A program made the position numbers and the translations under genes. 64,000 bases of DNA from an uncultured Roseicyclus sp. (GTDB taxonomy: Bacteria; Pseudomonadota; Alphaproteobacteria; Rhodobacterales; Rhodobacteraceae): the NCBI GenBank assembly GCA_947489665.1, contig CANLEH010000001.1, positions 1,398,501 through 1,462,500 on the forward strand, given 5' to 3'. The notes under the pieces were generated by a model. The model saw nothing but the letters and a program-made list of their open reading frames with translations, ran no database searches and was not told where the DNA came from. Positions 17,917 to 42,130 of the stretch are shown in pieces. Every line of letters begins with the position of its first letter. Within the stretch, counting starts at the first letter, position 1.

Positions 17917-18189
17917 CTAGTGAACGTTCCGCAAGAAGTCGTGCGCTGTTTGGCCAGCCCGGCCCGATTTCGGGAGCGGACTGCAAGCAACGACGCATGA
18001 TGGATTCAGCACCACTATCTGCCGTTGCAGCCGCGACCGAAGCAAATGAAGGTTCACTCCAGAGTCTTCGCTCAAACCCTTCAATACGGGTTCCAGTCTT
18101 CTCAGTGAATTGTCTATTCCGTGTTCGCTTGAACATTCGAGCGCGAGTTCAGCGATTGCACGGAACACGTCGTCTGTGTTTCTCGTCAT
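17917..18189 (-). CDS. hypothetical protein, probably 3'-truncated by IS6
   Basis: A 90-residue frame starting MTRNTDDVFRAIAELALECS, with GGGGAAGAG six bases before the ATG. Its stop codon lies exactly at the right boundary of IS6 copy 1 (17916/17917), so the original C-terminus was probably removed by the insertion or by an IS-mediated deletion. The N-terminal ~55 residues look helical; the end is less protein-like. A near-consensus CtrA site lies 42 bases upstream. Family unknown. Confidence 0.5.
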   Translation of the reverse strand: MTRNTDDVFRAIAELALECSSEHGIDNSLRRLEPVLKGLSEDSGVNLHLLRSRLQRQIVVLNPSCVVACSPLPKSGRAGQTAHDFLRNVH

Positions 18190-18231
18190 ATCTCTTCCCC
18201 ATCCAATAGCGAAGAGGATGCCGACGCGTGG

Positions 18232-18246
18232 TTAACAATCCCCTAA
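18232..18246. promoter_or_regulatory. near-consensus CtrA-like site
   Basis: TTAA-N7-CTAA, one mismatch from consensus, 42 bases before the start at 18189 on the minus strand. Confidence 0.5.
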
Positions 18247-18447
18247 CGAACGTTTAGAAACCGCGCGGCGCGGATTTGTGGTTCCGTTGGTGGGTGCAAC
18301 ATAAAAGCCCGTGCCGCGAACCAGGAGGCTTCGGCGTTCAATCTCAATCATCTCAGTGAGTGCCTTCTTGGTGTTCTCAAAGCCACGCCGCTCCGCTGCG
18401 GTTTCCGCGACAAGCAGCTTTTCTAGAATGGAAGTATCTGGGGTCAT
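18232..18447 (-). CDS. small hypothetical protein, 71 aa
   Basis: MTPDTSILEKLLVAETAAER ... The ATG at 18447 is preferred because AGGGAGA lies six bases upstream; two upstream in-frame ATGs (18453 and 18468) have worse spacing. The N-terminal half is a likely helix/coiled segment (EKLLVAETAAERRGFENTKK), the rest basic. A perfect TTAA-N7-TTAA motif lies 43 bases upstream. No family recognised. The presence of a good SD and a CtrA-type operator supports a real gene. Confidence 0.6.
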   Translation of the reverse strand: MTPDTSILEKLLVAETAAERRGFENTKKALTEMIEIERRSLLVRGTGFYVAPTNGTTNPRRAVSKRSLGDC

Positions 18448-18490
18448 GGTCATTCTCCCTATTGGCAAAAGGAAGTGTCGATAACGAGTG

Positions 18491-18505
18491 TTAATGAAGT
18501 CTTAA
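18491..18505. promoter_or_regulatory. CtrA-like site, perfect TTAA-N7-TTAA
   Basis: TTAATGAAGTCTTAA, followed two bases later by a further TTAA (18507). The distance to the start at 18447 is 43 bases, matching other sites in the island. CtrA is the conserved alphaproteobacterial response regulator that binds this spaced half-site motif. Confidence 0.65.
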
Positions 18506-18506
18506 G

Positions 18507-18713
18507 TTAACCTTTGCGTAAGCGGTTTCTCGCCCAAATCTCGTATCTGGAGTTGGCAAGCACGCTATTGGTGGACAGGCATACAGGGATGTAGCCGTCG
18601 TGGCGGCGCACCACGTGCGATGCACGAAAGAGCAATGGAACATCTTTTTGAGCGGCAATCTCTCGCGCACAGAGTTGCTGTGAAGCGTCGCCGCCGATGC
18701 GGCCTAAGCACAT
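18507..18713 (-). CDS. possible small ORF, 68 aa
   Basis: MCLGRIGGDASQQLCAREIA ... with a plausible composition but no clear ribosome binding site. It ends within the extended CtrA motif. It may be a chance frame; reported only because nothing else covers this stretch. Confidence 0.22.
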   Translation of the reverse strand: MCLGRIGGDASQQLCAREIAAQKDVPLLFRASHVVRRHDGYIPVCLSTNSVLANSRYEIWARNRLRKG

Positions 18714-18780
18714 TCAGCGCGATTTTCCGTTAAACCTCAAAACCAACTCATGACTGGACCAACTGGAGGGATGCCGGATT

Positions 18781-19260
18781 TCATGATGCATCCCCGATAC
18801 TGTGCATTGCCTTAGCCTCCCGCCATTCAGCACATCGCTGCTGCTGAGCCAGAGAAATGCGATTGCGACCTTCTTGAGTGCGCGGGCCAGTGCTAAGGCC
18901 CCCGTGCAGCTCGCAGCGTTTGCGGCCTGGCTCGCCTTTGGCACGACAGGGGTGGTCATTCCGGGTCTTTGCGCCACAGGTTGGTCGCTGCTTGCCATGC
19001 TGGACAGTATTTCGCGGAACTACGGACCCGAGATGCGCGCGCTTGGCTGGATCACGAAAATACCGCAGGAAATCGCTGAATTGCGCAGCGATGCGGGCAG
19101 GAACGCCATGAGCCAGCGGCACAATGCCCTTTGCCTCCCAATAGCCGACAGCGTGGCGGCCACAGCCAATCGTTTCGCCCAACTCGGCCTGCGTCGGTCC
19201 AGAAGCCGTGCGCAGAAAGGCAAAGTCTGACCCTTTGATGTGGGAGGGCTTCATTGCCAT
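18781..19260 (-). CDS. HTH and HGGxSTGP-motif protein
   Basis: A 159-residue protein. Residues ~10-45 (FLRTASGPTQAELGETIGCG ... VGYWE) resemble an XRE-type helix-turn-helix. Residues ~95-145 have a CGAKTRNDHPCRAKG zinc-like cluster followed by the HGGLSTGPRTQEGRNRI motif, seen in many short proteins of integrative elements and phages. CGGAGGC precedes the ATG at 19260, so the longer frame to 19305 is not used. Overlaps the next upstream gene by 10 bp, implying coupled translation. Role unknown, possibly regulatory or DNA-modifying accessory. Confidence 0.65.
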   Translation of the reverse strand: MAMKPSHIKGSDFAFLRTASGPTQAELGETIGCGRHAVGYWEAKGIVPLAHGVPARIAAQFSDFLRYFRDPAKRAHLGSVVPRNTVQHGKQRPTCGAKTRNDHPCRAKGEPGRKRCELHGGLSTGPRTQEGRNRISLAQQQRCAEWREAKAMHSIGDAS

Positions 19261-19517
19261 GTGCGCCTCCGTGCTCTTCGATCCCGTGCAGCAGCTTTTC
19301 GGCAAGCCTCACGGCACAACCGTGCGTCCACCCTCTTCCAGCTTGGCATGACTGAACCGCAGCGCTCACAGATCCACCCAGTCGCGTAGCGCCGATACAT
19401 CGCGATTGCACGCCGCCTCATACTAAGGTTGCGCTCCGCCGGTGCCTCGGCACGGATCACCAAACTCCCATTTGGGTCTGCTTCCATCGTGATTGAATGT
19501 GCATCCGGTGCTGGCAT
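19251..19517 (-). CDS. small Cys-rich (zinc-ribbon-like) protein, 88 aa
   Basis: C-terminal half reads WICERCGSVMPSWKRVDARLCREACRKAAARDRR: four Cys (CxxC ... CxxxC) in a basic context, as in a small zinc finger. GGAGCT lies six bases before the ATG. It overlaps the HGGxSTGP-motif gene by 10 bp, so the two form an operon. Family unknown; such pairs occur in mobile elements. Confidence 0.55.
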   Translation of the reverse strand: MPAPDAHSITMEADPNGSLVIRAEAPAERNLSMRRRAIAMYRRYATGWICERCGSVMPSWKRVDARLCREACRKAAARDRRARRRTWQ

Positions 19518-19784
19518 TTTGTGAGCTCCATAGGCGGATCAATACACTAGGAAGATGTCATTTGGCTTCCATGCAGTGCGCGTAACATCCACGGCAATGG
19601 GGTATTAATTTACCTCATCTGTTCAAGGGGTTTACGCGACTATTGCCCAATATTTCTTTGCGAAAACCTTAGGGTAGTCTTCGGGCTTCTGTTCTCCTGC
19701 TTTCTGGAAACCAGAACGCGCCTTTTCCGGCAAAACGGAAAAGCACAAATGGCCCCCCGAAGATGCCCCTAGAGGGGCGCCTGG

Positions 19785-21137
19785 CTATCCTATCATCTCG
19801 ACGCGTGCTGATCTCTGAGGCGAAGTCGGTTCAGCAAGGTCATTGGCCAACGGTAGGAATAGTGAAATTTCAGTGCCTGCATTCGAGCTTTGGATACAAA
19901 GCCCACCGCTGTGCTCCGCCAAGAAACCGACCACCATCGAAAGCCCGAGACCAGTTCCCTTCCCTTGCGGCTTTGTAGTGAAGAACGGCTCAGTGACCAA
20001 AGCCACTTCTTGATCCGGAATTCCCGAACCAGTGTCAGTCACCGTTACCAAGACGTACCGACCGTCTGCTGGTCGATCACCTATGAACTGCAAGTTGGGG
20101 TCCAACGCTTCAACAGCCGAGAGTCTGATGGCTATTGTCCCATTTCCGACTATCGCATCCGTTGCGTTCTTTACTAGGTTGAGCAATGCGGCTGAGAACT
20201 GGCGATCATCAACATAGATTTTTGATCCCGGTGCGTCCTGCTCAGATTTGAAGTGAATACGTTCAGGAACCATCGGCTCTGCGAGTTCGATTGTGTCTTC
20301 CAAGACGTCATTCGCATCTAGGAAGCGCTTCGTCGATGGTGCTCTTCGAGCAAATACCAGGAGTTGTTGGATTACGCCTTCCGCCCGCGTCGCTGCTGAC
20401 AATGCTTGAAAAAGTACTTCATCTCGCTCTGCAGGATCTTTCACATACTGCTGCAGTTCCACGTTTCCCTTGATGACTGTGAGTGCGTTGTTGAAGTCAT
20501 GAGCGACTCCACCGGCGAGCCGACCAATTGCGGACATCTTCTGCTCTTGGGCTAATCTCTCAGCGCCTTCCAACAGACGGACTTGTCGCTCGTGACCGCT
20601 GCGTAAGGTCAAGGCAATATACACTGCAGTCATCACAGACGTGAAAATCAAACCGGCCTGCACCAACGGTTCATCAATCCGCATCACATGTGTTCCGGAA
20701 ACGAAGACCACAATAATCGAAAAGACCGCAATCTGTGAGGTCACCAACCAACCGATGGTATCGGATCTCCGGACAAAGAACATTGCTGTCGCCACGATCA
20801 CGAACATTCCAATTAACATCAAACCTGGCTCATCGAGTGAAGCCAAATATGCGGGCAGCCATAAGAATGACGCGTGAACGAAGACGAACAGTGCCGCACC
20901 GACAGCTACATGCCTTCTAGTGGGATTTCGCAGCGCTATGCTTAAGCGAAGAAGCCAAAAATGAGCGGCATGCAGTGCGGCGTATGCGAGCACCCAAAGA
21001 ACCACAGAAAGCCAACCTGTGTAGAGGTACAACAGGACGCCGCCGACTGGCACTCCAATGGCGCGGACGATGATGTCGAGCTTTTCGCCATACTCGATAT
21101 CGTACATTGCCTGCAGCTCGTCTCGGGGTTCTCTCAT
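19785..21137 (-). CDS. membrane sensor histidine kinase
   Basis: A 450-residue kinase. N-terminal ~185 residues contain about six hydrophobic segments in pairs (VGGVLLYLYTGWLSVVLWVL, VGAALFVFVHASFLWL, LIGMFVIVATAMFFV, IAVFSIIVVFVSG) with no extracytoplasmic sensor domain. The dimerisation/phosphorylation box is GGVAHDFNNALTVIKGN (His near residue 212), followed by the ATPase N box LLNLVKNATDAI, G1 DTGSGIPD, and G2 GKGTGLGLSM. The HDFNN type box is usual for hybrid or NtrB-like kinases, but no receiver follows. No response regulator is adjacent. Start chosen at MREPRDELQ. Confidence 0.85.
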   Translation of the reverse strand: MREPRDELQAMYDIEYGEKLDIIVRAIGVPVGGVLLYLYTGWLSVVLWVLAYAALHAAHFWLLRLSIALRNPTRRHVAVGAALFVFVHASFLWLPAYLASLDEPGLMLIGMFVIVATAMFFVRRSDTIGWLVTSQIAVFSIIVVFVSGTHVMRIDEPLVQAGLIFTSVMTAVYIALTLRSGHERQVRLLEGAERLAQEQKMSAIGRLAGGVAHDFNNALTVIKGNVELQQYVKDPAERDEVLFQALSAATRAEGVIQQLLVFARRAPSTKRFLDANDVLEDTIELAEPMVPERIHFKSEQDAPGSKIYVDDRQFSAALLNLVKNATDAIVGNGTIAIRLSAVEALDPNLQFIGDRPADGRYVLVTVTDTGSGIPDQEVALVTEPFFTTKPQGKGTGLGLSMVVGFLAEHSGGLCIQSSNAGTEISLFLPLANDLAEPTSPQRSARVEMIG

Positions 21138-21434
21138 AAATGCAGCAGGCCTTTGGTGTTGCCCAGTTGCTATACCTTTGGACGGGGCCACCGGTCAATT
21201 TAGTTCGAGAAATTTCGCTTCCAACACTATTTCGAATGCTGCCCACCAACAGACGAAGTGGCTGGCTGAATGGACTCCCTAGACTCCTTCCTTCGTAAAC
21301 TTCCTCATCCACCGAACTTGAGAAACCAAATCCGGTTGGTGGCGAGTTCTGATCCGCCGTGTGGCCAATTATTCGTTGCTGCCTTTGAAACCATAACGAC
21401 ATTCACCGCATCGAAATTTGTGGAGGCACTAAAC

Positions 21435-22856
21435 ATGAGAAAAGCAGCACATGCTCCTTCCTTGTCATGCGAGGAGAACGTTAGAGCACTTGCCCCAAGA
21501 AAAAGCCCTTATTGGAATATCCTGGAGTTCTGTCGCCACATTGGTTTGCAAAAGCTCTCTTCTGGAGAACTTTACTGGGTGGCGCGAATTCGTTGCTTGG
21601 ATGGGCGGTACAAGCAGACAAGGCTCGGGCCTCATTTGTCCAACGAAGGCCATGGGCTGAATTACAAAGAGGCCTTGGCTCGTGCGCAAGACTGGTTCAA
21701 CGACCCTGGGATAATGGCCATATCGTCCGAAAAGTACCCCGTCGGGGTCAATACCAAGCTCAAATATACTAAGAAAACAAAAAGCTTCACAGTCGGAGAC
21801 GCAATGCACTCTTTTGTGGAATGGAAGCGCATCGCAGCCGCAAGGACATACTTCGAAACAACCCTTACGCTGATTAACCATCATATCATTCCTCGTCTTG
21901 GCCACTTGCCGGTTGAGGAACTCACTCAACCCGTTTTCACCCAATTCTGTATCGACGTTCTTGAAACCGCGCCCAAGAGGGGCAGAGGTGAGTCAGGCGT
22001 GCGAGTTCGTTTGGAAGACATAGATCATGAGCGGCTTCGAAAAAGGAAGAAGACCCTTAACACCGTCATCGGCCTGTTGCGCACGGCAATTGAAATGGCC
22101 TGGGAGAACGGTGACGTGGAGAGTGAGCTGTATTGGCGACGCCTACGCCGCGTTCCCCACGCCGATACGCCGCGACAGTTCTTTTTGACGCGGGCTCAGG
22201 CAAAAAGCTTGATCGCCTCCTGCAGACCCGACCTGGCGCTCTTGGTGCAGGGCGCTTTGTATTCTGGTTGCCGCGTATCTGAACTTGCTCGCCTTCAGGC
22301 GCGAGACGTCGGCGGCCACGTGTTCGGGATCTACGTAGCACCCATGAAAAGCTATCGTGGACGTTATGTCGTGCTGCCGAACGAAGGCATGTCGTTCTTC
22401 TTAGACCTGGTCGAGGGCTTGGAAGACGAAGATTTGGTTTTCAGAATGTCATCAGGAAGATCATGGTCAGGCTGTCACAAACACCTCTTTAGGGATGCCG
22501 TGCGACGGGCCGGATTACCCAATGGTTTTGTGTTTCATGGGCTTCGACACACATATGCAAGCCAGCTCGTACAAGCGGGTACGCCACTCGCAATGATTGC
22601 CAAGCAACTAGGGCACTCGAACACTGACACTGTCAGCCGCACATACGGACATCTTTGCTGCGATGGTCTCGAGAGCGAGATATCCCATCGATTTGCCCCC
22701 CTTCAAAAAGAGCGAAAGGATGCCAGGCTCGAACGTCTGAGAGACTCTTTGCAAAACCGCACGGAGCCGCATTGGTCCTGGCCAAGAAAGAATAGGAGCA
22801 AAGCATCTGGTGAACTGGTGGGCTTACTTAGGTCTCGTGAAGAGGAGCTGAAATAG
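21435..22856 (+). CDS. tyrosine recombinase (phage-type integrase)
   Basis: A 473-residue integrase. Catalytic residues visible: Arg in SGCRVSELARLQ (~279), HGLRH (~368-372), and Tyr in SRTYGHL (~403). A SAM-like core-binding segment lies at ~115-190 (FTVGDAMHSFVEWKRIAAAR). ATG at 21435 has GGAGG 8 bases upstream; the frame is open to 21270. It lies inside the IS6-bracketed segment, so it may belong to a separate integrated element from the one ending at 43.85 kb. No adjacent tRNA seen. Confidence 0.85.
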   Translation: MRKAAHAPSLSCEENVRALAPRKSPYWNILEFCRHIGLQKLSSGELYWVARIRCLDGRYKQTRLGPHLSNEGHGLNYKEALARAQDWFNDPGIMAISSEKYPVGVNTKLKYTKKTKSFTVGDAMHSFVEWKRIAAARTYFETTLTLINHHIIPRLGHLPVEELTQPVFTQFCIDVLETAPKRGRGESGVRVRLEDIDHERLRKRKKTLNTVIGLLRTAIEMAWENGDVESELYWRRLRRVPHADTPRQFFLTRAQAKSLIASCRPDLALLVQGALYSGCRVSELARLQARDVGGHVFGIYVAPMKSYRGRYVVLPNEGMSFFLDLVEGLEDEDLVFRMSSGRSWSGCHKHLFRDAVRRAGLPNGFVFHGLRHTYASQLVQAGTPLAMIAKQLGHSNTDTVSRTYGHLCCDGLESEISHRFAPLQKERKDARLERLRDSLQNRTEPHWSWPRKNRSKASGELVGLLRSREEELK

Positions 22857-28662: not shown

Positions 28663-30516
28663 CTAAAGCAGATTGTCTAACGATAGTTCTGATTGTTGGA
28701 ATTTCGATGTCGAGCGCCAAAGCCACCCGCTCGTTTCGTTCAGCACTTTGAGTAGCTCGGGTGCGGTCATCGGCTTCCCAAAATGGAACCCCTGCAAAAT
28801 GTCACAACCCAAATCGCGAGCGAGCTGCGCTTGGGCTTCAGTTTCCACCCCTTCAGCGACGACTTTCAGTCCAAGGCTTTTTCCGATGCCTATGAGCGAC
28901 TCGATCAACGCTCGGGCACGTTGGCTTGCTGCAGCAGGCTGAACGAACTGACGATCAATCTTCAGAACGTCTGGGTTAATCTGAAGAAGTCCTTGGACTG
29001 AAGCATGACCGGTCCCGAAATCATCTACCGCGATCTCGACGCCGAGTTCACGCAGTTCCTCTATTGTCCAATTGGTGGCACCATGGACCGGCTCCAAGTA
29101 CACTGACTCAAGGATCTCAACGGTCAATCGTTTCGGATCGATCCCTGAGACTTTAATGTCGTGCAAGAGCGTTGTATCGGAAAGTCGACCAGCAGAAACG
29201 TTGATCGCAAACCTAGAGAGCTCTATCTGCGCATTGTCAAGATATTTCACCGCTTCTCCAAGGCGGCTGAATAAGATCGCATCAATCTCCGCAAGGATTC
29301 CCATTTTTGCCGCGACATCTAAGAAATCCGTTGGCGGTAATAGGCCCCTTGTCGGATGTGGCCATCTGACAAGGACTTCAACACCCGAAATTTGACCTGT
29401 CGACGCATCGACCAGTGGTTGGAAATAGGGAACGAACTCATCTTGTTCGCACGCAACCAGCAGCTCTGCTGCTAGATGCCTGGTCGCCACGGACTGAGCA
29501 TGCATCTCAGCCGTAAAGAATGACCAGCGACCGCGGCCGGTTGACTTCGCGTGATAAAGTGCCGTGTCCGCATCTCCGACGACTTCTTCGGGGATTTTGG
29601 TATTCGCATCTGCGATTGCCAATCCTACGCTTGCACTACACGAAACCGATTTTCCGCCATATTCAAATGGTTTGGACATCTCTTGCATGATTTCGTCTGC
29701 TAATCCGCTGATTTCGAGTGCACTCTCTCCTAGGGGCCTCACAATAACAAACTCGTCACCCCCCAACCGAGCGACCAAATCCGAATCCGAGGTAATCCGT
29801 TTCAACATAGATGCAACGGCGACAAGTAAACCATCACCCGCTTCATGGCCAAGCGTGTCGTTTATTGCCTTAAAACGATCCAAATCGATGTAAAGTATTG
29901 CGAATGAAGCGCCTCCATTTCTCAACGCGGAAGTCCAAACGCTAACGTTGGCTTCGAAGTGTCTACGGTTAGATAGACCAGTTAGTGGGTCCTCGTTGGA
30001 GTCCCGTGTGACAGCTTTTGCTATGGAGCGTAGGCGCCTATTCTCGCTTTCCAAGTGCGCGACTTTTTCCTTATATTCTCCTAACAGGTGGCTGGGGGCT
30101 GCCTCGCCGCTTAAATCTTGAACTTTGCTTGTTTTTCCACAGTTAGGTTGGAACTCGATCAAGGAACATAGCCACCAGCGACTGCCGTTCTCTGGGTCAG
30201 TCAGAGGTGTCCAAGTCATCGTAACCCAGATAGGCACACCATTTTTCTTGGACAGCTGAACTTTGACTGAAAAATGCTCCCAACGCATCAACTTGTCGAT
30301 GGTGAGAAGATGGGTGCTCTGGTCCATATCTGGGCTTACAAAAATCGTTGCCCTGTGGCCAATAACATCTGCCTCTTCGAAGCCCATAACCTGAAGAAAC
30401 GGTCTATTGCACCAATGGAACACCATCACCGCACCATCATCATCGCTTGCGAGTGCCAGCCCCAATCCTTCTTCGCACTTCGAGGGCACTTGTTCGAGGA
30501 GTCGAAACGATATCAT
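28663..30516 (-). CDS. PAS-GGDEF-EAL c-di-GMP protein
   Basis: A 617-residue protein: N-terminal PAS-like region (GLALASDDDGAVMVFHWCNRPFLQVMGFE) , GGDEF domain with intact RLGGDEF (~252) and DPLTGLSNRR, and EAL domain with EVLVRW in place of EALLRW (~382), NVSAGRL, DDFGTG, KIDRQFV, VVAEGVETEAQ. It may make and/or degrade c-di-GMP. The catalytic Glu of the EVL motif is kept. Start at ATG 30516 is preferred: the longer frame starts with TTG at 30555, only 3 bases from a perfect CtrA motif, whereas 30516 puts the motif 42 bases upstream. In Rhodobacterales, c-di-GMP genes are known CtrA targets. Confidence 0.88.
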   Translation of the reverse strand: MISFRLLEQVPSKCEEGLGLALASDDDGAVMVFHWCNRPFLQVMGFEEADVIGHRATIFVSPDMDQSTHLLTIDKLMRWEHFSVKVQLSKKNGVPIWVTMTWTPLTDPENGSRWWLCSLIEFQPNCGKTSKVQDLSGEAAPSHLLGEYKEKVAHLESENRRLRSIAKAVTRDSNEDPLTGLSNRRHFEANVSVWTSALRNGGASFAILYIDLDRFKAINDTLGHEAGDGLLVAVASMLKRITSDSDLVARLGGDEFVIVRPLGESALEISGLADEIMQEMSKPFEYGGKSVSCSASVGLAIADANTKIPEEVVGDADTALYHAKSTGRGRWSFFTAEMHAQSVATRHLAAELLVACEQDEFVPYFQPLVDASTGQISGVEVLVRWPHPTRGLLPPTDFLDVAAKMGILAEIDAILFSRLGEAVKYLDNAQIELSRFAINVSAGRLSDTTLLHDIKVSGIDPKRLTVEILESVYLEPVHGATNWTIEELRELGVEIAVDDFGTGHASVQGLLQINPDVLKIDRQFVQPAAASQRARALIESLIGIGKSLGLKVVAEGVETEAQAQLARDLGCDILQGFHFGKPMTAPELLKVLNETSGWLWRSTSKFQQSELSLDNLL

Positions 30517-30558: not shown

Positions 30559-30573
30559 TTAACCAGTCGTTAA
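30559..30573. promoter_or_regulatory. CtrA-like site, perfect TTAA-N7-TTAA
   Basis: TTAACCAGTCGTTAA, 42 bases upstream of the chosen start of the GGDEF-EAL gene (minus strand). The TTAACC half matches the extended CtrA consensus. Confidence 0.7.
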
Positions 30574-30651: not shown

Positions 30652-31860
30652 TTAACCAGTGTCGGCGTGGCTGTGGCTTACACCGTGCGCAAATACTACG
30701 GCCAATACGCATAGGACGCATATGGCCAGGTTCGCATACCCGCCGTCCAACCATGCCAGAGTGGATACTGTTGCGATCCCGCCTAGCCGAGCAAACGTGA
30801 TGTCCAGGCTTGCCGAGACCGCGGTCAATCCCTCAGGCGCAAATCTCAGGATCAACTGCGTCGACGGTGCATTGCTGCACGCCAGTCCTGCACCGATCAG
30901 AACTGACGACAGCCCGACTATCAGGAAGCTTTGATGATTGAACAAAAGGAGCACTGCGATAGCCATGAAGAGCGGAGCAACAAGCATGATCCTATGGATA
31001 TAATGACGATCGACCATATCCCTCAGCAACGTGCTGATACCGGAAAAAGTCAGCCATGCCACTGATAAGAAAAGGCCAATACTGGAGGCGCCAATTTCAT
31101 TCTCGGACAGCCAAACCGGTAGGCGAAACAGGTAATAGGTGATGCTCCCGTATGTGCAGAACACATATGCAAATGTTATGAGAAGGTCTCGGCTGCGGAA
31201 AATCTCCCAATAGTTCCGCTTGCCTGAAGTGGAGGCTTCCGGCTCTTGCGATACCTGTGATCTAATCAGCAATACCCATGCGCTGGCGGCGACGGTCGCC
31301 ATAACGACGAAAGCTATTCTCCAGCTGTGATCCCCGAGGAGATGTCCGTATAGAAGAGGGGCTAAAGCAGCGATATAGCCTGCAATACTTCCCCACAAAA
31401 TTAGCGCGCGTCCCGGGGTGTCTGGAGAGGCGCGCGTCAAATATATCGGGACAAGCGGGGAGAAAATACCGCTCCCGAAACCTTGCAGAAGTCGCCCGGC
31501 AATAATGGTTTCATAATTCTGGGCTGTTGCTGATACCAGTGCCCCCGTCGCGAAAAGGGCGACCCCCCATCCAAAAATTCTTCTTATGTTGAGAGTGTCG
31601 CCGAAGCATGCGCAAAACAGCACGCCAAGGGCGACCGCCGCACCGTAAGAGTTGAAAACCCAAGCAAGATCCGCAACCGACAAGCCAAATTGCGACTGTA
31701 TGGCTGGCAACAACAGGGGAACGAGGGTGAGATCCAACACGAAGGCGATGAATGCCGCAATCGGTCCGATAATCATGGCACGAGACACGAAAAGCCCTCC
31801 CGCAATCTTGCGGATGTCTGTTGTATTCGGTTTCAGCTGCGAGAAGTATTGCTCAGCCAT
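30652..31860 (-). CDS. MFS transporter
   Basis: A 402-residue integral membrane protein with about 12 hydrophobic segments and MFS features: LAWVFNSYGAAVALG in helix 2, GRLLQGFGSGIFSPL (motif C-like) and the loop CFGDTLNIRRIFG (motif A position). This pattern is typical of drug/metabolite:H+ antiporters of the DHA type. The ATG at 31860 overlaps the stop of the upstream gene by 8 bp, so the pair is translationally coupled. Substrate unknown. Confidence 0.82.
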   Translation of the reverse strand: MAEQYFSQLKPNTTDIRKIAGGLFVSRAMIIGPIAAFIAFVLDLTLVPLLLPAIQSQFGLSVADLAWVFNSYGAAVALGVLFCACFGDTLNIRRIFGWGVALFATGALVSATAQNYETIIAGRLLQGFGSGIFSPLVPIYLTRASPDTPGRALILWGSIAGYIAALAPLLYGHLLGDHSWRIAFVVMATVAASAWVLLIRSQVSQEPEASTSGKRNYWEIFRSRDLLITFAYVFCTYGSITYYLFRLPVWLSENEIGASSIGLFLSVAWLTFSGISTLLRDMVDRHYIHRIMLVAPLFMAIAVLLLFNHQSFLIVGLSSVLIGAGLACSNAPSTQLILRFAPEGLTAVSASLDITFARLGGIATVSTLAWLDGGYANLAICVLCVLAVVFAHGVSHSHADTG

Positions 31861-32644
31861 TGGCAGCCACACCCACATCAAGGGCACCTCGCACGAGCGA
31901 GGCGGCAAGCGTTGTCACTGGAGCTTTAGCCTCAACTTCGGTTGCTGGTCGTGTCTTTGCGAGCGTTCGCTCCAACTCACTTGCTTCCATCCAGATGAGA
32001 TAGTCTTCCTCAGTTACTTGCTGGTCTGGTCCGATCCATTGCCCGGGCTCACAATGGTTGAAACAATAGCGCAAATGGGCTCCCTTTGCGGCGACACGCT
32101 GCGGCACAAGTGCAAAGACATACGATGGGTTCCATGTCGCTACAGCAACTTCGAGCATCAGACGCGAGAGCAGGGTAGTTACTCCTTGACTGCGCGGGCC
32201 ACCAAGGCCCTGGGCACGAAGCCAAAATTCGCCCTGATAGCAAACCCGTCCGGTTATGAACTGAAGCGCGTCAGGCCCTGAGTAAAAGGTCTGGTCCGGG
32301 TCAGGTGTGGAGTCTGGGGTGATGTATTTGTGACGATGTCGATCCAAATGAATATTCAGGGAGCTTCCCGATAGGTCGAGAAGGCGCACGGCTTGCGTGT
32401 GGATCAGATCGCCGTTGTCGTTGAAACCGCATATCCAAAAGCCGTTTGTATCATCAATGTAAGAAGCTGCCACGTCGAACATGGGGTAAATCGGCCCGCG
32501 ACCCGACAACTCGCTCCTTGAGGCGCGATACTTGGCGAAGTCGTCTCCAATCTCAATGCGAATTCCGACTTTTTCCAATTCTTGTACAATACCGGACAAA
32601 TGTTTTGTCAGCTCAAAAAGTCTACTTGGCGACGTCATGCCCAA
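31853..32644 (-). CDS. hypothetical protein, GNAT-like, coupled to MFS gene
   Basis: A 263-residue protein. The segment CYQGEFWLRAQGLGGPRSQG followed by TTLLSRLMLEVAVATW and SYVFALVPQ resembles the acetyl-CoA-binding loop and helix of GNAT acyltransferases, but the core motif is not exact. WxxxPDQ-type aromatic patches and a C-terminal helix follow. It directly precedes and overlaps the MFS gene. A weak CtrA-like motif (CTTA-N7-TTAA, 32693-32707) lies 48 bases upstream. Possible modification-and-export pair; tentative. Confidence 0.55.
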   Translation of the reverse strand: MGMTSPSRLFELTKHLSGIVQELEKVGIRIEIGDDFAKYRASRSELSGRGPIYPMFDVAASYIDDTNGFWICGFNDNGDLIHTQAVRLLDLSGSSLNIHLDRHRHKYITPDSTPDPDQTFYSGPDALQFITGRVCYQGEFWLRAQGLGGPRSQGVTTLLSRLMLEVAVATWNPSYVFALVPQRVAAKGAHLRYCFNHCEPGQWIGPDQQVTEEDYLIWMEASELERTLAKTRPATEVEAKAPVTTLAASLVRGALDVGVAANG

Positions 32645-33546
32645 GTTGCTCCTTATTCCGAGGTTGCCAAGTACCTTTTGAGTGCAATTTGGTTAACAAT
32701 TCGTAAGGCGCTATCTGTGGCATCATTTGTGCCACGGGCCTTCTTTCCAGAACTACCGGACCAAATCGCGTATGATCAGTAGATTGGTACCGTTACCGCC
32801 GACGGCGCCTGTGACACCCAAAAAGTGCCAAGATGCGGTTGCGGAACTCGGGGTTTGTGCGGTTGTACTCCCGCGCAAGAACGCCAAGCCGTGGAAACCC
32901 CTCGCGCTGGGGCTGGCGCCCGGAACTAGGCCGTTGATGCCTCTGGGTATCTTGCCGAACGATCTGGCGCCAATGGTGTGGATACTTTCGCCGGAGTCTT
33001 GTCGAAGCCGAGCAGAATTGCACCAAGATTGCGCGTAAATCCTTGATCGAAAAAGAATTTCATAGGAAACTTGCGGAAATCCAAGCTCACGTCGCCTTCC
33101 AGAATCGCTGCATCGCTCTTAGCATGCTAGTTGCCGAACCAGTAGGCCACGTTCGTCCAGAGAGAGGAGAGTTGAGCGAACAAACTAGTTTTTGAAACAA
33201 AGACGACTGGAGATAAAACTAGGAATTCTACTGCTGTTTGAAAATGCGAAGCTGTGCGTAATTCGATAGCGTTTTCAGACTCCCGGAGTCGTCCATAGCA
33301 TCTTTGCAGAGCGCGTATCAAGAAGGCTCACATGTCTCCGAACCCTGTATTCCTGGGCACATAGGTTTTTCTTGGGGAGGGGGAGCGTAGTGCCCTACGG
33401 AGTAATGATCTACTCCAAGAAGCTCTGTTTGTGGTGCTAACTTGTATCATGAGTAGCCCTTTTTGAATTCAAATAGTGCAACTAGTGGTGGAACAAGGCA
33501 TTGCGTTAACCAAGGTTCAAAGTATTGCGATTTCAACTCCACATCT
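32645..33546. other. 900 bp with no convincing gene
   Basis: Opposed short frames around 32727-33038 carry Arg/Pro-rich translations but lack start signals; this may be a decayed gene or IS fragment that I cannot identify. The stretch around 33120-33330 is AT-rich. A CtrA-like motif at 33506 precedes the RTX gene. Confidence 0.4.
33506..33520. promoter_or_regulatory. near-consensus CtrA-like site
   Basis: TTAACCAAGGTTCAA (TTAA-N7-TCAA, one mismatch), 26 bases before the ATG at 33547 of a membrane-anchored RTX gene. It supports starting the gene at 33547 instead of a TTG at 33463 that lies before the site. Confidence 0.45.
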
Positions 33547-34464
33547 ATGCTAAAGCTTGAACAGGCTTCAACGAGCGAAAGTTGGATTATGTTTGGCATT
33601 CTTGCGTTCTTGCTGGTGGGTGTAGGGGTTTCTCTCATGTTACCAGATGGCACTGAAGAGAGCAGTTCAGCAGGAGGAAGTGATGCCACCTCGGACGACG
33701 GGTCTTTCGATACAGATGAAACCACTCCTACGCCGGATCAGACTGACCTACTTGATCTTTTGCCGACGGATTTCGGTGATGTGACGGCTGACGATCCATG
33801 CGATGCTCTCATCTCAGAGCGAGTGGCGCCGGATACAGTTGTTGCTGATGATGTCGGAGCAGACAATAACCGAATTGGTACATCAAATGCTCCATACGAG
33901 AACGACTTTGACCTTGACGCGTTTGAGATGGTCGAGTTTGCGGAAGATACCGACAATGAAGTTGTTGGCACGAGTGGAAGCGACCTGGTTGTGGGAGGGG
34001 ACCTCTCCGACAAAATCGAGGGCTGTTCCGGTGATGACTACCTTTACGGCGGAAAAGGATCCGATACCATCCTAGGTGGCGACGGGCACGATCTGATCGT
34101 TGCGGTATCTGACCCATATCTCGGAGACGACGCCTCTGCCTCAGAACTATACGGTGGCGAAGGGGATGACACCCTCATAGGCGAGAACGACGACCTACTG
34201 GTCGGGGGTGATGGAACTGATTTTTTCTATGTTTTTTCTGATGATGGAGCCACTCCTACGACTGCAAGAATTGCCGATTTTGATGCTTCACTCGAGTCTC
34301 TGTTAATCGAAATGAGGGACGACTTCAGCGGAGGTGACCATGATGTCGATGTTCGGGCAACCCAGGAGGGCGTAGAGGTGGTCGTGAACGGTGTGCCAGT
34401 TGTCTTATTGGAGGGAGTAGCGCAAACCACGGGGTTGAATATTCAAGTGGCAAGTGTTGCCTAG
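33547..34464 (+). CDS. RTX protein with N-terminal membrane segment
   Basis: A 305-residue acidic protein. Residues ~14-33 form one hydrophobic segment (MFGILAFLLVGVGVSLML), followed by ~85 residues of Asp/Ser/Thr-rich linker and RTX repeats (GTSGSDLVVGGDLSDKIEG, GDDYLYGGKGSDTILGGDGHD, GGEGDDTLIGENDDLLVGGDGTD), then a beta-rich C-terminal domain (DFDASLESLLIEM ... VVVNGVPVVLLEG). RTX proteins usually lack an N-terminal membrane segment, so this one may be anchored in the inner membrane or use Sec. Shares plan with the protein at 40582-41685. Confidence 0.8.
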   Translation: MLKLEQASTSESWIMFGILAFLLVGVGVSLMLPDGTEESSSAGGSDATSDDGSFDTDETTPTPDQTDLLDLLPTDFGDVTADDPCDALISERVAPDTVVADDVGADNNRIGTSNAPYENDFDLDAFEMVEFAEDTDNEVVGTSGSDLVVGGDLSDKIEGCSGDDYLYGGKGSDTILGGDGHDLIVAVSDPYLGDDASASELYGGEGDDTLIGENDDLLVGGDGTDFFYVFSDDGATPTTARIADFDASLESLLIEMRDDFSGGDHDVDVRATQEGVEVVVNGVPVVLLEGVAQTTGLNIQVASVA

Positions 34465-34861: not shown

Positions 34862-35305
34862 ATGACACCGAATGACACAGCGCATAATGGCAAGGCTTTA
34901 AGAATTTCCGCAGGTTCCGAAGCGCCGATGCGAGAGCAGATCTCACTAGCACCAATTCGCTGCAAAATGGAAATGGATGCGGTTGGCTTGGTTTCTAGAA
35001 ACCTTACCCACAAACTTGCCGTTTTGATTGGATTTGAGCAGAGCGATTTTGACTTCCTTCACGGCCTTTTGAGTTGTCAAGGAATAACGCTAATCGGTGT
35101 AGGCAACGTACCTGATGCTTTAGCGGTTATCGAGTTGCATGAACCTGGTATCGTGCTTCTCCGTGACAATGGGGACTACCATTGTGGCCCACAATCGCTC
35201 AACGAGGCACTCCAGGAGAGAGGCGTCGCGCAGCCTCTGGTCTGTTTGTGCGATGCCTCATTTCTTGCAAGGATGTGCCTTCAAGAGATTGAGAATGGAT
35301 TCTAG
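34862..35305 (+). CDS. receiver-like fragment, hypothetical
   Basis: A 147-residue protein. After a ~50-residue non-conserved lead, HKLAVLIGFEQSDFDFLHGLLSCQG, ALAVIELHEPGIVLLRDNG and PLVCLCDASFLARMCLQEIENGF follow the strand/helix order of a response-regulator receiver through helix 4. It lacks the acidic pair after strand 1 and stops just where strand 5 (with the conserved Lys) would begin. It could be an atypical receiver or a gene cut by an in-frame TAG. GGGGG precedes the ATG. Confidence 0.45.
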   Translation: MTPNDTAHNGKALRISAGSEAPMREQISLAPIRCKMEMDAVGLVSRNLTHKLAVLIGFEQSDFDFLHGLLSCQGITLIGVGNVPDALAVIELHEPGIVLLRDNGDYHCGPQSLNEALQERGVAQPLVCLCDASFLARMCLQEIENGF

Positions 35306-35382: not shown

Positions 35383-35397
35383 TTAACGGACAATTAA
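35383..35397. promoter_or_regulatory. CtrA-like site, perfect TTAA-N7-TTAA
   Basis: TTAACGGACAATTAA, 41 bases upstream of the ATG at 35439. Confidence 0.68.
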
Positions 35398-35438: not shown

Positions 35439-35747
35439 ATGCATACATTGAGATCCCGGCTTCTTGGAAGCATCGCAGAGATCATGGGTGAGGTTTGTTG
35501 TGATGGGCGCCTGGGAGAAGTGCATTCTTGTTCAGATCTCGTATCGGCGCTGGCTAAGGACATGGGTGTATCGCAAGCAGAAATTGAGGCCCTATTGAAG
35601 CGCGTAGCGCATAGCACTCAAAACACCAATAGGAGTGAATCCGTGTCAAGCACCCATTCACAACATGATGAGCTCGACACTGTACAACAGTATCGAGAAC
35701 ATCGGTCGGATCGTCGTGGAAGTCGCCAGTCGTGGCGCGTTCAGTAA
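35439..35747 (+). CDS. hypothetical protein, 102 aa
   Basis: MHTLRSRLLGSIAEIMGEVC ... with a helical N-terminal ~60 residues (DLVSALAKDMGVSQAEIEALLKRVA) resembling a small helix-turn-helix or helical bundle, and a polar, Arg/Ser/Gln-rich tail. GTGGGAAA lies just before the ATG and a perfect CtrA motif 41 bases upstream. Family unknown. Confidence 0.55.
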   Translation: MHTLRSRLLGSIAEIMGEVCCDGRLGEVHSCSDLVSALAKDMGVSQAEIEALLKRVAHSTQNTNRSESVSSTHSQHDELDTVQQYREHRSDRRGSRQSWRVQ

Positions 35748-36388: not shown

Positions 36389-36403
36389 TTAACCTATCGT
36401 TAA
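36389..36403. promoter_or_regulatory. CtrA-like site, perfect TTAA-N7-TTAA
   Basis: TTAACCTATCGTTAA, with another TTAA 16 bases further (36420). The first pair is 44 bases before the ATG at 36448. The TTAACC half matches the extended consensus. Confidence 0.7.
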
Positions 36404-36447: not shown

Positions 36448-36624
36448 ATGAAGTACGATCTCCGCTTCTTACATACCCTCGTTGAGGCGCAAAAACTTGC
36501 TGAGGCAAGCAACTTTAAACACACTGCGCGAGCACTTGAACGCATCCTGCGCGATGAAGAGTTGCGCGCATTTCAGACACCACCGCTTAACAGGGATGGC
36601 GTACGGCACGAACCCTCTCTGTGA
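36448..36624 (+). CDS. small hypothetical protein, 58 aa
   Basis: MKYDLRFLHTLVEAQKLAEA ... a basic, helical protein of 58 residues. TAGGAGT lies eight bases before the ATG and a perfect CtrA motif 44 bases upstream. The two signals together make this very short gene credible. No family recognised. Confidence 0.55.
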   Translation: MKYDLRFLHTLVEAQKLAEASNFKHTARALERILRDEELRAFQTPPLNRDGVRHEPSL

Positions 36625-36643: not shown

Positions 36644-36658
36644 TTAGTCCCTTGTTAA
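36644..36658. promoter_or_regulatory. near-consensus CtrA-like site
   Basis: TTAG-N7-TTAA, one mismatch, 42 bases before the ATG at 36701. Confidence 0.5.
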
Positions 36659-36700: not shown

Positions 36701-36910
36701 ATGGAAAAATCAATTGAGACCCATCGAATGGTAGCTGAACTGGCCTTGCTCGCCGCCGGTACACGAATACCCATCGAGTTGAGTTGCTTTAGACAGAGCA
36801 TCCTTCAGCTGAGCCGATGTACAGATTATTCCTTTGACTACCTTTGGTCGAGATTCGAAACGCAATACCGCGCTTTGTTGGGCGAAGAGCGCTCGTGTGG
36901 TGAATTCTAA
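36701..36910 (+). CDS. small hypothetical protein, 69 aa
   Basis: MEKSIETHRMVAELALLAAG ... helical, with two Cys (SCFRQS, SRCTDY). The ATG at 36701 has GGGGGG five bases upstream; a frame from 36671 has no signal. A near-consensus CtrA motif lies 42 bases upstream. Family unknown; sits in a run of tiny genes with the same operator arrangement. Confidence 0.5.
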   Translation: MEKSIETHRMVAELALLAAGTRIPIELSCFRQSILQLSRCTDYSFDYLWSRFETQYRALLGEERSCGEF

Positions 36911-39246: not shown

Positions 39247-39261
39247 TTAAACGGCGCTTAA
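39247..39261. promoter_or_regulatory. CtrA-like site, perfect TTAA-N7-TTAA
   Basis: TTAAACGGCGCTTAA, 128 bases before the ATG of the receiver-like gene at 39390; the distance is longer than at other sites. It could serve that gene and the CtrA-like regulator downstream. Confidence 0.5.
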
Positions 39262-39291
39262 GCCATTGAGCAAAATGGCATTACTTCCCGG

Positions 39292-39389: not shown

Positions 39390-39785
39390 ATGCCCCACAG
39401 CACGCTCAAGCGCAGAAACCTCCTCGTAGTCGGCATGTTGCCTGTCGAGATTGAACAGCTGTGTGCGGAAAGCAACCGTTTTTCGTGGGACATAGCACAT
39501 AGCACCGGCTGTGTTCATGAATTTGAAAGCATTGCCAAGTCGCGATATCACGATGTGCTTGTCGATATCGAAGGCTGTACCAGCTACGCTCCCGCGTTGC
39601 TCAATTATCTAGCAATGCGCGATTGCCTAGAAGTGGATGGGATGCGTGTCGCCGTCGGCCAATGGTTTCCGGCTGGCTTCAGAAAACAACTTGCGTCAGC
39701 AGGGTTCTGCACATTTGTAGAATTCAGGGCCTGGCGAACAACCCTCCGTGAAGCGTTTTGCAAACGATTCCAAAACGCTGCCTAG
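39390..39785 (+). CDS. atypical receiver-like small protein (paralogue of 15754-16122)
   Basis: A 131-residue protein, ATG at 39390. RRNLLVVGM (strand 1), YHDVLVDIEGC (strand 3, Asp at the phospho-acceptor position), GMRVAVGQWFP (strand 4), GFRKQLASAGFCTF (helix 4/strand 5) and TLREAF follow the receiver fold, but the two acidic residues after strand 1 and the Lys of strand 5 are absent. Shared Cys in IEGC/VDRC and RDC/RGC distinguish the pair from ordinary receivers. It lies 46 bp before the CtrA-like regulator, on the same strand, so may be co-transcribed and act with it. Function unknown. Confidence 0.6.
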   Translation: MPHSTLKRRNLLVVGMLPVEIEQLCAESNRFSWDIAHSTGCVHEFESIAKSRYHDVLVDIEGCTSYAPALLNYLAMRDCLEVDGMRVAVGQWFPAGFRKQLASAGFCTFVEFRAWRTTLREAFCKRFQNAA

Positions 39786-39831
39786 TAGGTGACAAGTGTT
39801 CTTTTACCTAGCATAATTTTGGGAGTAGCAG

Positions 39832-40539
39832 GTGCGATTTCTTTTCTTAGGACCTGATCTAATCGGTTGCGAAGCCAAACGGCTTGCAGAAGCCAAGGGT
39901 TGGAACCTTTCCAGCACCGATGACGTTGTGGTTGCGAACGATCTGCTGCGTGAGATTGAGTTCCAGGCGGTGCTTGTTTATGCCGATCAGGGAGCCCTTC
40001 CTTGTGCAGAAATTAGTGCGCTACGACGCATGCTACGGTCGCCAGTAGTTGCCTGTTTGTCGGAGGATAATCCCCAGAGACGATCGCGTGTCTTAAAGTT
40101 GGGCGCACTTACAACCGTACGTTACCCCTTTTTCGACGGCGAGTTTTATGCAGCACTGACAAATCTAATCGTTCATAAAATTGAGATCCAACGTACTCAC
40201 ATTCACACAGTGCGCCAATTTGGTTGCCTGCAACTGGACCTTGCGAGTCAGGAAGTTACGGGTAATGCAGGGACAGTGTTTCTTCCGAGAAAGCCATTTC
40301 AATTGTTGGACTTGCTAACGGCATCGGCTAATCGACCGGTTTCGCGTGAACGTATTCTAACACGATTGTACGGCCTAGAGGATGAGCCTGAGCCGAAGGT
40401 TATTGATGTTATGATATGCAAGCTGCGGCGGACTCTCGCGAAAATCGATGTGGATGATGTCAGCATTCTGACCGATCGAGGGTTCGGCTATCGTATTTCG
40501 TGCGCGCACCATCAAGCGCAGAAAGAACTTGCGGCCTGA
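39832..40539 (+). CDS. CtrA-like OmpR-type regulator with degenerate receiver
   Basis: A 235-residue protein, GTG start with GGGAG upstream. Residues ~125-225 form a winged-helix domain very close to CtrA: FLPRKPFQLLDLL, RERILTRLYGLEDEPEPKVIDV, MICKLRRTLAKI, GFGYRIS (CtrA has [21 protein letters not shown] and GRGY). The N-terminal half has receiver-like strands and helices but no acidic pair, and strand 3 reads AVLVYADQG, with Tyr near the phospho-acceptor position. It would thus bind CtrA-type sites without ordinary phosphorylation control. Family assignment by motif; target sites are inferred. Confidence 0.75.
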   Translation: MRFLFLGPDLIGCEAKRLAEAKGWNLSSTDDVVVANDLLREIEFQAVLVYADQGALPCAEISALRRMLRSPVVACLSEDNPQRRSRVLKLGALTTVRYPFFDGEFYAALTNLIVHKIEIQRTHIHTVRQFGCLQLDLASQEVTGNAGTVFLPRKPFQLLDLLTASANRPVSRERILTRLYGLEDEPEPKVIDVMICKLRRTLAKIDVDDVSILTDRGFGYRISCAHHQAQKELAA

Positions 40540-40581
40540 TGGCGCGGACCACCGTTGCCGACGTGGGTGAGCTTGAACGAC

Positions 40582-41685
40582 TCAAGACAACACAATCTCA
40601 ACGTTGGGATGGTCAGCCATCGATACATTCAGCAGCTTGGCGTATTTGTCCGCTCCAAAGAAAACCTCTATACCCGAGCCATCAGCAGCGTCTCGAAGCG
40701 AAGAAACTCTTTCGACATCTTCGTCCGCGGAATTAATCACATTGAGTGTTAGTTTGTCGGTCCTGACGTCAAAGTCGGCTACAACAGCAACCTGTGACCC
40801 TTCGATTTCCTGCAAGGTGACGCTGAAGCTATCGTTTCCAGCCCCGCCGACGGCTATGTCGTTCGCGTTGACATAGAGCGTGTCGTTGTCATTTCCACCA
40901 TAGAGAATGTCAGTTCCGTACCCGCCCCTCATTTCGTCATCTCCGCTACCGCCCAGTAGGGTGTCAGAGCCAGTTCCGCCAAGCAGTGTATCATCGCCGT
41001 AATCTCCACTGATCAGATCATTTCCGCTGCCGCCGAGAATTCTGTCAGCGTTTTCGCCCCCCTCTAGGATGTCGTTTCCACTGCTGCCGGTCAGAAAGTC
41101 GTTACCAGAACCGCCTAGGAGCGTATCATTTCCGCCGCCACCATACATTTGGTCTGCACCACGTAGCCCTCGGAGGAGGTCATTTGCAGCGCCTCCAGAC
41201 ATGCGATCATTAAACTGGCCTCCGATTAACGTGTCTTGTCCGTTTCCACCGGACATAAAGTCGATTCCTGGTCCACCCAACAAAACATCGTTTCCTAGGC
41301 CCCCGGATAAAGTGTCGTTGCCGGATGATCCGCTGATTGTGTCGTTTCCGGCCTCACCTGAAATTTCGTCCGCGCCGGCGCCAGATGTTACTAAATCGTC
41401 ACCATCTCCTGCGAGCACGTTGAACCCCGCTTCAGATTGAATGGCGATCGTATCGTCGCCAGCGAACGTGAGAATGTCTGATGCGAACTCGTCGTTAACG
41501 ATGATGTCATCATTGTCGTCCCCGTACGTTTCGTCCGATGTATCAGTTTCATCGTTGTCGTCCCCGACAAAAACGAGCGAAACCGCAAAGCTTAGAAGCA
41601 GCAACGAGAAAACAGTTAGCAATAGAACGCCGCCTCTACTGCTTGCATCGCAGGCCAATGCTGAGCGTGAAAACTCGCAATTCAA
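40582..41685 (-). CDS. RTX protein with N-terminal membrane segment
   Basis: A 367-residue acidic protein. Residues ~19-41 (VLLLTVFSLLLLSFAVSLVFV) form one membrane segment, followed by an Asp-rich linker, about 12 RTX repeats (GGLGNDVLLGGPGID ... GGSGDDEMRGGYGTD) and a beta-rich C-terminal domain (VADFDVRTDKLTLNVINSAD). TTG start. The plan matches the RTX protein at 33547. A near-consensus CtrA motif lies 77 bases upstream. Location probably the inner membrane with repeats in the periplasm, or export by type I/II; not known. Confidence 0.8.
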   Translation of the reverse strand: MNCEFSRSALACDASSRGGVLLLTVFSLLLLSFAVSLVFVGDDNDETDTSDETYGDDNDDIIVNDEFASDILTFAGDDTIAIQSEAGFNVLAGDGDDLVTSGAGADEISGEAGNDTISGSSGNDTLSGGLGNDVLLGGPGIDFMSGGNGQDTLIGGQFNDRMSGGAANDLLRGLRGADQMYGGGGNDTLLGGSGNDFLTGSSGNDILEGGENADRILGGSGNDLISGDYGDDTLLGGTGSDTLLGGSGDDEMRGGYGTDILYGGNDNDTLYVNANDIAVGGAGNDSFSVTLQEIEGSQVAVVADFDVRTDKLTLNVINSADEDVERVSSLRDAADGSGIEVFFGADKYAKLLNVSMADHPNVEIVLS

Positions 41686-41762
41686 AGCTGCTCAAGGTCT
41701 ATCCTGACAATCTATGCTACGGACTGTTTGAAGTCCTCAGTTCACGTTGTATTGCGAATTGG

Positions 41763-41777
41763 TAAATGGACCGTTAA
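41763..41777. promoter_or_regulatory. near-consensus CtrA-like site
   Basis: TAAA-N7-TTAA on the plus strand (TTAA-N7-TTTA on the minus strand, one mismatch), 77 bases upstream of the RTX gene start at 41685. Confidence 0.4.
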
Positions 41778-41825
41778 CGGCGCTTGCTCTCTGAGGCTGA
41801 ATGCGGGTTTACATCATAAATGTGA

Positions 41826-42071
41826 CTACAACCAAGCAAACTTAAACTCGTCAGAGGCGTCGAAAAGTTCGTCAAACAAACAAATGGTGGGTGGTCGCCT
41901 GACTGTTGGCAGCGAACGGGGTATGTTTTGGGACCTTCTTGCAGTGACGCTGGTGTCTTGGCTGTGAAACAGACAACTGTTTAAACGTTTGTCGCGTGCG
42001 CCGGTCTCCGTCCTCCAAAGTGCGAACAGTTTAAGCCTCTTCGCTGCTACGTCTTCTCGTTTGCTTTGCAT
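41826..42071 (-). CDS. possible small basic protein, 81 aa
   Basis: MQSKREDVAAKRLKLFALWR ... basic N-terminus, polar middle, acidic C-terminus (FDELFDASDEFKFAWL). ATG at 42071 has GGAG six bases upstream, and a near-consensus CtrA motif lies 44 bases further up, matching the spacing seen elsewhere. Composition is only moderately protein-like; family unknown. Confidence 0.4.
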   Translation of the reverse strand: MQSKREDVAAKRLKLFALWRTETGARDKRLNSCLFHSQDTSVTARRSQNIPRSLPTVRRPPTICLFDELFDASDEFKFAWL

Positions 42072-42115
42072 ACTGAACTCCATAGTGTAGGACGAGAAAC
42101 GCTACCTCAACGGAA

Positions 42116-42130
42116 TTAAGTATCTACTAA
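42116..42130. promoter_or_regulatory. near-consensus CtrA-like site
   Basis: TTAA-N7-CTAA on the plus strand, one mismatch, 44 bases before the minus-strand start at 42071. Confidence 0.42.

Follow-up and report, generated by a model that had tools for sequence, protein, structure and literature searches.

The 64,000-nucleotide stretch analysed here, called the window below (contig CANLEH010000001.1 of an uncultured Roseicyclus sp., positions 1,398,501 to 1,462,500), contains part of a mobile island in which a series of genes, several of them very small, stand behind boxes of the CtrA type (TTAA-N7-TTAA). The right end of the island is marked by a 25-bp copy of the 3' end of tRNA-Phe (43827-43851, plus strand), which recurs 54.6 kb leftwards, outside the window, at a complete tRNA-Phe gene identified by ARAGORN, and a pair of genes for an AlpA-like regulator and a tyrosine integrase (42260-43663, minus strand) adjoins this end. 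With an integrase beside the tRNA 3'-end repeat and the whole tRNA at the opposite end, the element is a tRNA-integrated genomic island. The window holds five exact boxes, at 18491, 30559, 35383, 36389 and 39247, just where an earlier note on this DNA had placed them; all five fall inside the 54.6-kb element, and the core part of the window right of 43.9 kb contains no perfect motif, as the note had also observed.

On the minus strand, the exact box at 18491-18505, with a one-mismatch box next to it at 18507-18521, lies 43 bp before a gene for a 71-residue protein of a family that we call famA (18232-18447). A one-mismatch box at 18232-18246 overlaps the 3' end of this gene and stands 42 bp before an open reading frame (ORF) of 90 residues belonging to a second family, famD (17917-18189), and an exact box at 30559-30573 stands 42 bp before the gene of a 617-residue PAS-GGDEF-EAL protein (28663-30516), by its domains an enzyme of cyclic di-GMP (c-di-GMP). 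On the plus strand, exact boxes at 35383-35397 and 36389-36403 precede a 102-residue famD-like ORF (35439-35747) by 41 bp and a second island copy of famA (58 residues, 36448-36624) by 44 bp, respectively, and a one-mismatch box at 36644-36658 precedes by 42 bp a 69-residue famD-like ORF (36701-36910), for which ATG 36671 is an alternative start. Finally, a one-mismatch box at 42116-42130 on the minus strand is 44 bp away from an 81-residue ORF (41826-42071), whose start at 42071 is favoured over 42083 because ATG 42083 is TTG in the ortholog of genome G249, a member of the same genus.

Other boxes are placed differently. The exact box at 39247-39261 (plus strand) is 128 bp from a 131-residue ORF with no family match (39390-39785), which lies directly 5' of a divergent CtrA-like regulator (39832-40539, plus strand) and has a weak relative in the corresponding region of genome G259. 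Two RTX repeat proteins have one-mismatch boxes: the first (33547-34464, plus strand, hydrophobic N-terminus) behind a box at 33506-33520, 26 or 68 bp away depending on the start chosen, and the second (40582-41685, minus strand) with a box at 41763. For a further ORF without family match (31853-32644, minus strand, TTG start at 32644, with ATG 32638 used for ortholog comparison), the box is degenerate here and its orthologs carry a one-mismatch box 53 bp upstream.

Exact boxes are in clear excess. Dinucleotide shuffles of the window yielded 0.14 exact sites on average and none of 100 gave five, and shuffles of the island by itself, with its composition kept, yielded 0.18 exact sites against 5 observed and 7.5 sites with at most one mismatch against 16. 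The spacer is specific: TTAA pairs separated by seven bases number 5 in the island, against a mean of 0.2 (maximum 2) for the other 39 spacer lengths between 1 and 40, and 19 in 15 famA regions of other genomes (247 kb), against a mean of 1.0 (maximum 5). The whole genome (4.13 Mb) contains 30 exact sites, compared with 0.44 to be expected from how often TTAA occurs in 306 kb outside the island. A 280-kb sample of this genome, made up of 14 stretches each 20 kb long, holds 12 sites within one mismatch of the motif and no exact one. All five exact window sites lie between 18.4 and 39.3 kb, the nearest exact site rightwards being 1.8 kb past the window end. The earlier note had proposed comparing this density with that of the rest of the genome; five of the 30 exact sites lie within some 20.8 kb (P = 0.0004 for uniformly placed points). 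Its five one-mismatch sites (18232, 33506, 36644, 41763 and 42116) are present, but its list omits three within the region (18507, 23115 and 23608) and three beyond it (3936, 4031 and 60215), and sites with at most one mismatch exceed chance in the window just 2.5-fold or so (16 vs 6.5 in shuffles). A reversed-motif control (33 sites genome-wide) was rejected as a guide, since for the bare motif it misleads: AATT outnumbers TTAA about sevenfold here (1340 vs 188 over 280 kb of this genome, counting both strands).

All seven gaps of 41-44 bases from motif to start codon given in the earlier note are correct, and the constant distance that it described holds for these seven sites but not for the exact site at 39247. 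Because gaps and one-mismatch sites had originally been picked by eye, we adopted a test in which any 4-bp window of gaps up to 119 bp could score, using ATG ORFs of at least 50 residues and 1500 random placements. Seven of the 13 sites with at most one mismatch between 17.5 and 42.5 kb have such an ORF 41-44 bp downstream, whereas randomly placed sites shared a 4-bp gap window in 2.5 cases on average and 5 at most, so that 0/1500 placements reached seven. The same gap to an ORF of this length is found at 4 of the 5 exact window sites but at 1 of the 25 exact sites elsewhere in the genome (three of the 25 if gaps of 40-48 bp are counted), and none of the 12 sites in the 280-kb sample has an ATG ORF at 41-44 bp. 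The gap marks the island's class of genes; as a geometry of host CtrA promoters in general it shows no clear excess. A genus-wide promoter class of the form box-N40-48-ATG (149 matches vs 32 with the pattern reversed, in 13 genomes) was rejected, and this excess is not counted as support because it mostly reflects ATG over GTA, ATG being 3.5 times commoner in this genome; 18 of 30 stored matches open a frame of fewer than 40 codons. Among such sequences, near-identical divergent promoters around a CtrA-type box recur in genome G248 (contig C1, 1650900-1651003, 3324813 and 3345012-3345114), perhaps as a repeated element.

Promoter shape was examined in 32 boxed promoters, seven from the window and 25 from other genomes, chosen for their downstream ORF (mostly small; two GGDEF-EAL). 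Their consensus, from sites pre-selected for at most one mismatch to TTAA-N7-TTAA, is TTA(A/G)C-N5-GTTAAC, in agreement with the published CtrA motif, given as TTAAC-N5-GTTAAC (PMC7232146) or TTAA-N7-TTAAC (PMC4046655). As a second element, 23 of the 32 sites have an A 13 bp downstream of the box, a count that no column reached in 2000 row shuffles. The second base of the -10 element (the -11 A) is highly conserved, and the A at +13 is probably this key base; read in this way, it implies that transcription would begin about 24 bp past the box, which would itself lie across the -35 element. A short leader of roughly 17-24 bases would then carry the ribosome site, an arrangement that would explain the constant gap. 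In addition, a C occurs 27 bp before the box in 20 of the 32 promoters.

The boxed genes had been thought to share nothing else obvious, a view that is contradicted by famA, which is present twice, each time before another boxed small gene. The two copies (starts at 18447 and 36448) are related at 28-31% identity (BLASTP E 4e-4, a single comparison), and each is followed by a second small gene with a box of its own, 18189 after 18447 and 36701 after 36448. These second genes are assigned to famD, which the ORF at 35439 also weakly resembles, the family as a whole being held together by weak similarity; a search of the bacterial family with the window's three famD rows returned nothing convincing outside this genome. 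The famA protein (two rows, mean pLDDT, i.e. predicted local distance difference test, of 71) is predicted to form a helical hairpin, with a low-confidence tail in the copy at 18447, and the model gave no significant match in PDB (best E 2.6).

Both the small genes and their boxes are conserved on sister islands. In G249 the famA and famD orthologs of the pair at 18447 and 18189 are 90% and 94% identical, respectively, and both boxes are kept, at gaps of 43 and 42 bp; the ortholog of the 42071 ORF has retained its one-mismatch box at a gap of 43 bp, and that of 31853-32644 is boxed at 53 bp. The ratios of nonsynonymous to synonymous substitution rates (dN/dS) against the G249 orthologs are 0.25 for famA, 0.17 for famD and 0.52 for the 42071 ORF, and on this ground the three small ORFs are regarded as coding. 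G259 has orthologs of the PAS-GGDEF-EAL protein (82% identical; 81% in G249) and of 31853-32644 (87%), boxed at gaps of 40 and 53 bp. At the PAS-GGDEF-EAL promoter the half sites of TTAAC-N5-GTTAAC are intact in all three species, the box being exact at a gap of 40 bp in both G249 and G259, while the flanks have diverged and the gap differs by two.

Further relatives of famA were sought in whole genomes with protein profiles only, without promoter information. The two-row profile of the window copies had weak matches in three other genera, with a box just upstream in two, and the next profile was built from those two boxed loci with the third (genome G116) left out, a choice of rows that was not blind. 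The resulting five-row profile, run against 394 genomes of the bacterial family, returned 28 rows, of which 2 were own, 13 were kept and 13 were dropped; from the 13 genomes of the genus, a profile of fifteen rows returned nine (2 own, 2 dropped). Outside this genome there are 17 small-ORF relatives, in eight other genera and three congeners. In 15 of them the start is preceded at 42-57 bp by a box that is exact (12 cases) or has a single mismatch, compared with a mean of 0.39 and a maximum of 3 boxed when the upstream sequences were shuffled. Two of the 17 have GTG starts, and one famA gene of G249 has a gap of 45 bp. The 13 rows dropped from the five-row search matched at E 7.8e-4 or weaker in frames of at least 122 residues, and no box with at most one mismatch lies in the 200 bp before any of them. 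The box and its spacing follow one small-protein family across genera. This family is sparse, being found by the five-row profile in 10 of the 394 genomes including its own; across 210 genomes sampled from the whole class, it was matched at E <= 0.001 only in its own genome and once inside a 558-residue frame. Genes of the luxI type stand at most 2.1 kb from famA in genome G098, and other GGDEF-EAL proteins are encoded near famA in G111 (locus L095, 3952-6642) and G259 (locus L098, 11139-12551; one-mismatch box, gap 45). Locus L103 holds a further pair of similar small proteins (12337-12543 and 14507-14701), each after a one-mismatch box at a gap of 45-46 bp.

The reading that we favour, with a probability of about 0.62, is that the sites are CtrA-activated promoters on the tRNA-Phe-integrated island, by which island genes would be drawn into the CtrA programme of the host. 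In studied relatives CtrA is tied to quorum sensing and steers motility, signalling and gene transfer agents. Host CtrA, presumably phosphorylated by CckA-ChpT as in those relatives, would most likely bind and activate the boxes, and several small helical proteins, the c-di-GMP enzyme and the RTX proteins would come on together with the host CtrA programme. From the sequence features described above we infer CtrA binding, activation rather than repression, the start position and the timing. The CtrA-linked accessory regulon suggested in the earlier note is thus retained as the best reading of the DNA, in view of the consensus, the conservation on sister islands, the spacing that follows famA across genera and the rarity of this spacing at other exact sites. 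It needs correcting in that some of the genes fall into families and that, as the island encodes a CtrA-like regulator, host CtrA may have to share the boxes.

Several observations weigh against this reading. If sites were placed uniformly, five exact ones would fall within some stretch as long as the whole 54.6-kb element with P = 0.015. Of the 25 exact sites beyond the island, 10 have an ATG 40-48 bp downstream, against 6.2 on average and 11 at most for other distances, and the A at +13 is not visible in the 12 usable rows of the 30 genus-wide pattern hits. Two of the 17 famA relatives, both copies in G111, have no box, and two unboxed matches among those dropped (G323 and G116) resemble famA by eye; were they members, the count would be 15/19.

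The genome encodes CtrA itself (contig C2, 3371-3985), with an intact CtrA-type receiver and recognition helix and with a one-mismatch site 51 bp before the gene. However, the island encodes a CtrA-like regulator of its own (39832-40539, GTG start, OmpR-type DNA-binding domain), and host CtrA may therefore not be the sole binder. Host CtrA is the best other match to this protein (29% identity), whose receiver, read from the alignment, is without the usual acidic pair and lysine and so is not an intact phospho-receiver. Its CtrA-like recognition helix, PEPKVIDVMICKLRR, retains ICKLR and matches host CtrA better than the host's other aligned OmpR-type regulators. The NCBIfam model for Rhodobacterales CtrA ranks first (E 2e-18), with 67 bits against a cut-off of 350, a score below that of a CtrA ortholog. 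A tree of 15 rows, one of which (L006) is a wrongly picked ORF, places the protein next to CtrA (support 93/83) on a very long branch, which we take as a hint, and its predicted structure is unusable (mean pLDDT 41). No relatives at E <= 1e-20 were found in 247 other genomes of the bacterial family; at E <= 1e-15 there was one match in each of the other 12 genomes of the genus, read as their CtrA, and among the matches listed for phages, plasmids and genome contigs there were just CtrA- or OmpR-type proteins at 22-36% identity. A degenerate receiver shared by the ORFs at 34862, 39390 and 39832 was considered and rejected (identity just 21-23%). Judged by its sequence, the protein is not CtrA, and it may act like CtrA at the DNA.

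It is conceivable, if unlikely, that the boxes are mainly targets of this regulator, forming a private, phosphorylation-independent regulon or one for which it competes with host CtrA. The recognition helix, the position in the tree and the best NCBIfam model point that way, as do the exact box upstream of the 39390-39832 pair and a gap that is special to the island's gene class rather than to host sites at large. On the other side stand the low bit score and the unusable structure model, and the regulator has no match at E <= 1e-20 in the 247 genomes, although G249, G254 and G259 show both the boxes and the spacing. Rather improbable is that the boxes serve CtrA as repression sites, so that island genes would be on when CtrA activity falls: repression of one such phage promoter by CtrA was deduced (DELTA_120, PMC9437464), but two other phages showed activation (PMC9437464), and the A at +13 would put the box near -35, where activating CtrA sites lie in Caulobacter (PMC6180460). 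Chance, arising from an A+T-richer island, many start codons and hand-picked one-mismatch sites, could be read into the roughly twofold enrichment of sites with at most one mismatch but is very improbable given the island-composition shuffles (0.18 exact), the other spacers (mean 0.2) and the random placements that never reach the spacing, and it is already contradicted by conservation across genera. Equally improbable is another regulator with a TTAA-type palindrome, e.g. of the Fnr/Dnr type, for which an overlap of half sites has been noted, since five bases between TTAAC and GTTAAC fit CtrA and not TTAAC-N4-GTCAA (PMC7232146).

Activation by host CtrA remains our preferred reading. The persistence of the promoter before famA relatives in other genera suggests that small proteins not studied so far form part of the CtrA network; that they are adaptors feeding back on CtrA, quorum sensing or c-di-GMP is our guess. 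A wider proposal, possible but doubtful, is that Rhodobacteraceae share mobile promoter-plus-gene cassettes, each with a full CtrA site at a fixed distance from the gene of a small helical protein, and that these cassettes connect to the CtrA/quorum-sensing/c-di-GMP switch; some islands, the present one among them, would add a phosphorylation-blind CtrA relative which would read the same boxes and override or damp the host CtrA programme. If this were true across the family, accessory DNA with ready-made CtrA promoters would wire islands into the CtrA decision, and the conserved small proteins would be new candidate regulators of that decision; a protein search that predicts the promoter 15 times out of 17 offers a direct way to list and test such genes.

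A different family of small proteins beside boxes, HW, matched 206 of 295 genomes of the bacterial family at E <= 0.001, the host's genome not being among them. The 26 stored loci of the common type come from the best-scoring matches; in 14 of them a box, exact in 12, precedes the ATG by 21-22 bp, and in another three an exact box closely precedes a start codon that is unresolved or not ATG. This geometry does not fit the start position proposed above and may mean another mode of control. Homology among famA, famD and HW, which look alike by eye, was rejected on profile comparison probabilities below 1%, and the three are treated as separate. A CATGCTA-like string recurs upstream of the box in many HW loci (L118-L143, position about 1500). 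One HW locus, by Pfam, contains an alcohol-dehydrogenase-type reductase (read as crotonyl-CoA reductase), HW, luxR and luxI; in five further loci we recognised by eye a reductase-like frame in three and a luxI-like frame in four.

Other cargo of the island includes a type I secretion pair (ATP-binding cassette protein and HlyD), the two RTX proteins and the PAS-GGDEF-EAL protein, a major facilitator superfamily transporter, a histidine kinase, a second integrase and transposases. Pfam searches of 30 ORFs between 14 and 44 kb, a subset, found integrases and AlpA and no phage structural family. Relatives of the second integrase (21270-22856) at 81% identity are encoded in G259 (L147) and G254 (L146), where boxed genes lie in the same regions. 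A match to the Rfam family 'Ruegeria trans44 sRNA' at 42226-42491 (E 3e-39, minus strand) coincides with the AlpA-like gene (42260-42484), and this Rfam family may really be a protein gene.

The arrangement can be compared with three known systems. In the CtrA regulon of Rhodobacterales (Dinoroseobacter shibae, Rhodobacter) the motif is likewise TTAAC-N5-GTTAAC, and predicted sites lie before quorum-sensing genes and before dgc2, for a c-di-GMP synthase (PMC4046655, PMC6473078, PMC7232146). The boxed genes described here differ in being clustered on a mobile island and in including small-protein families that we did not find described as CtrA targets; among the titles and abstracts that searches of open-licence literature listed, none dealt with them. 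The HW loci recall the Roseobacter luxRI locus behind a crotonyl-CoA reductase (B topology, PMC3824088), with box, HW, luxR and luxI in such a locus, and the luxR2 promoter of D. shibae has predicted CtrA sites (PMC4046655); here the likeness to the island ends, as the HW box stands 21-22 bp before the ATG rather than 41-57 and the HW, famA and famD profiles do not match. Lastly, arrays of CtrA sites are found in phages of Alphaproteobacteria ('LPEG' phages, lytic deferment). Unlike these, the present element is an integrated chromosomal island, and the excerpted part of that account does not describe a fixed distance from box to start or a cross-genus small-protein family (PMC9437464). Like them, it is mobile and has its intergenic sites in clusters ahead of genes without a known function, and for the phage arrays both binding and regulation by CtrA have been reported (PMC9437464).

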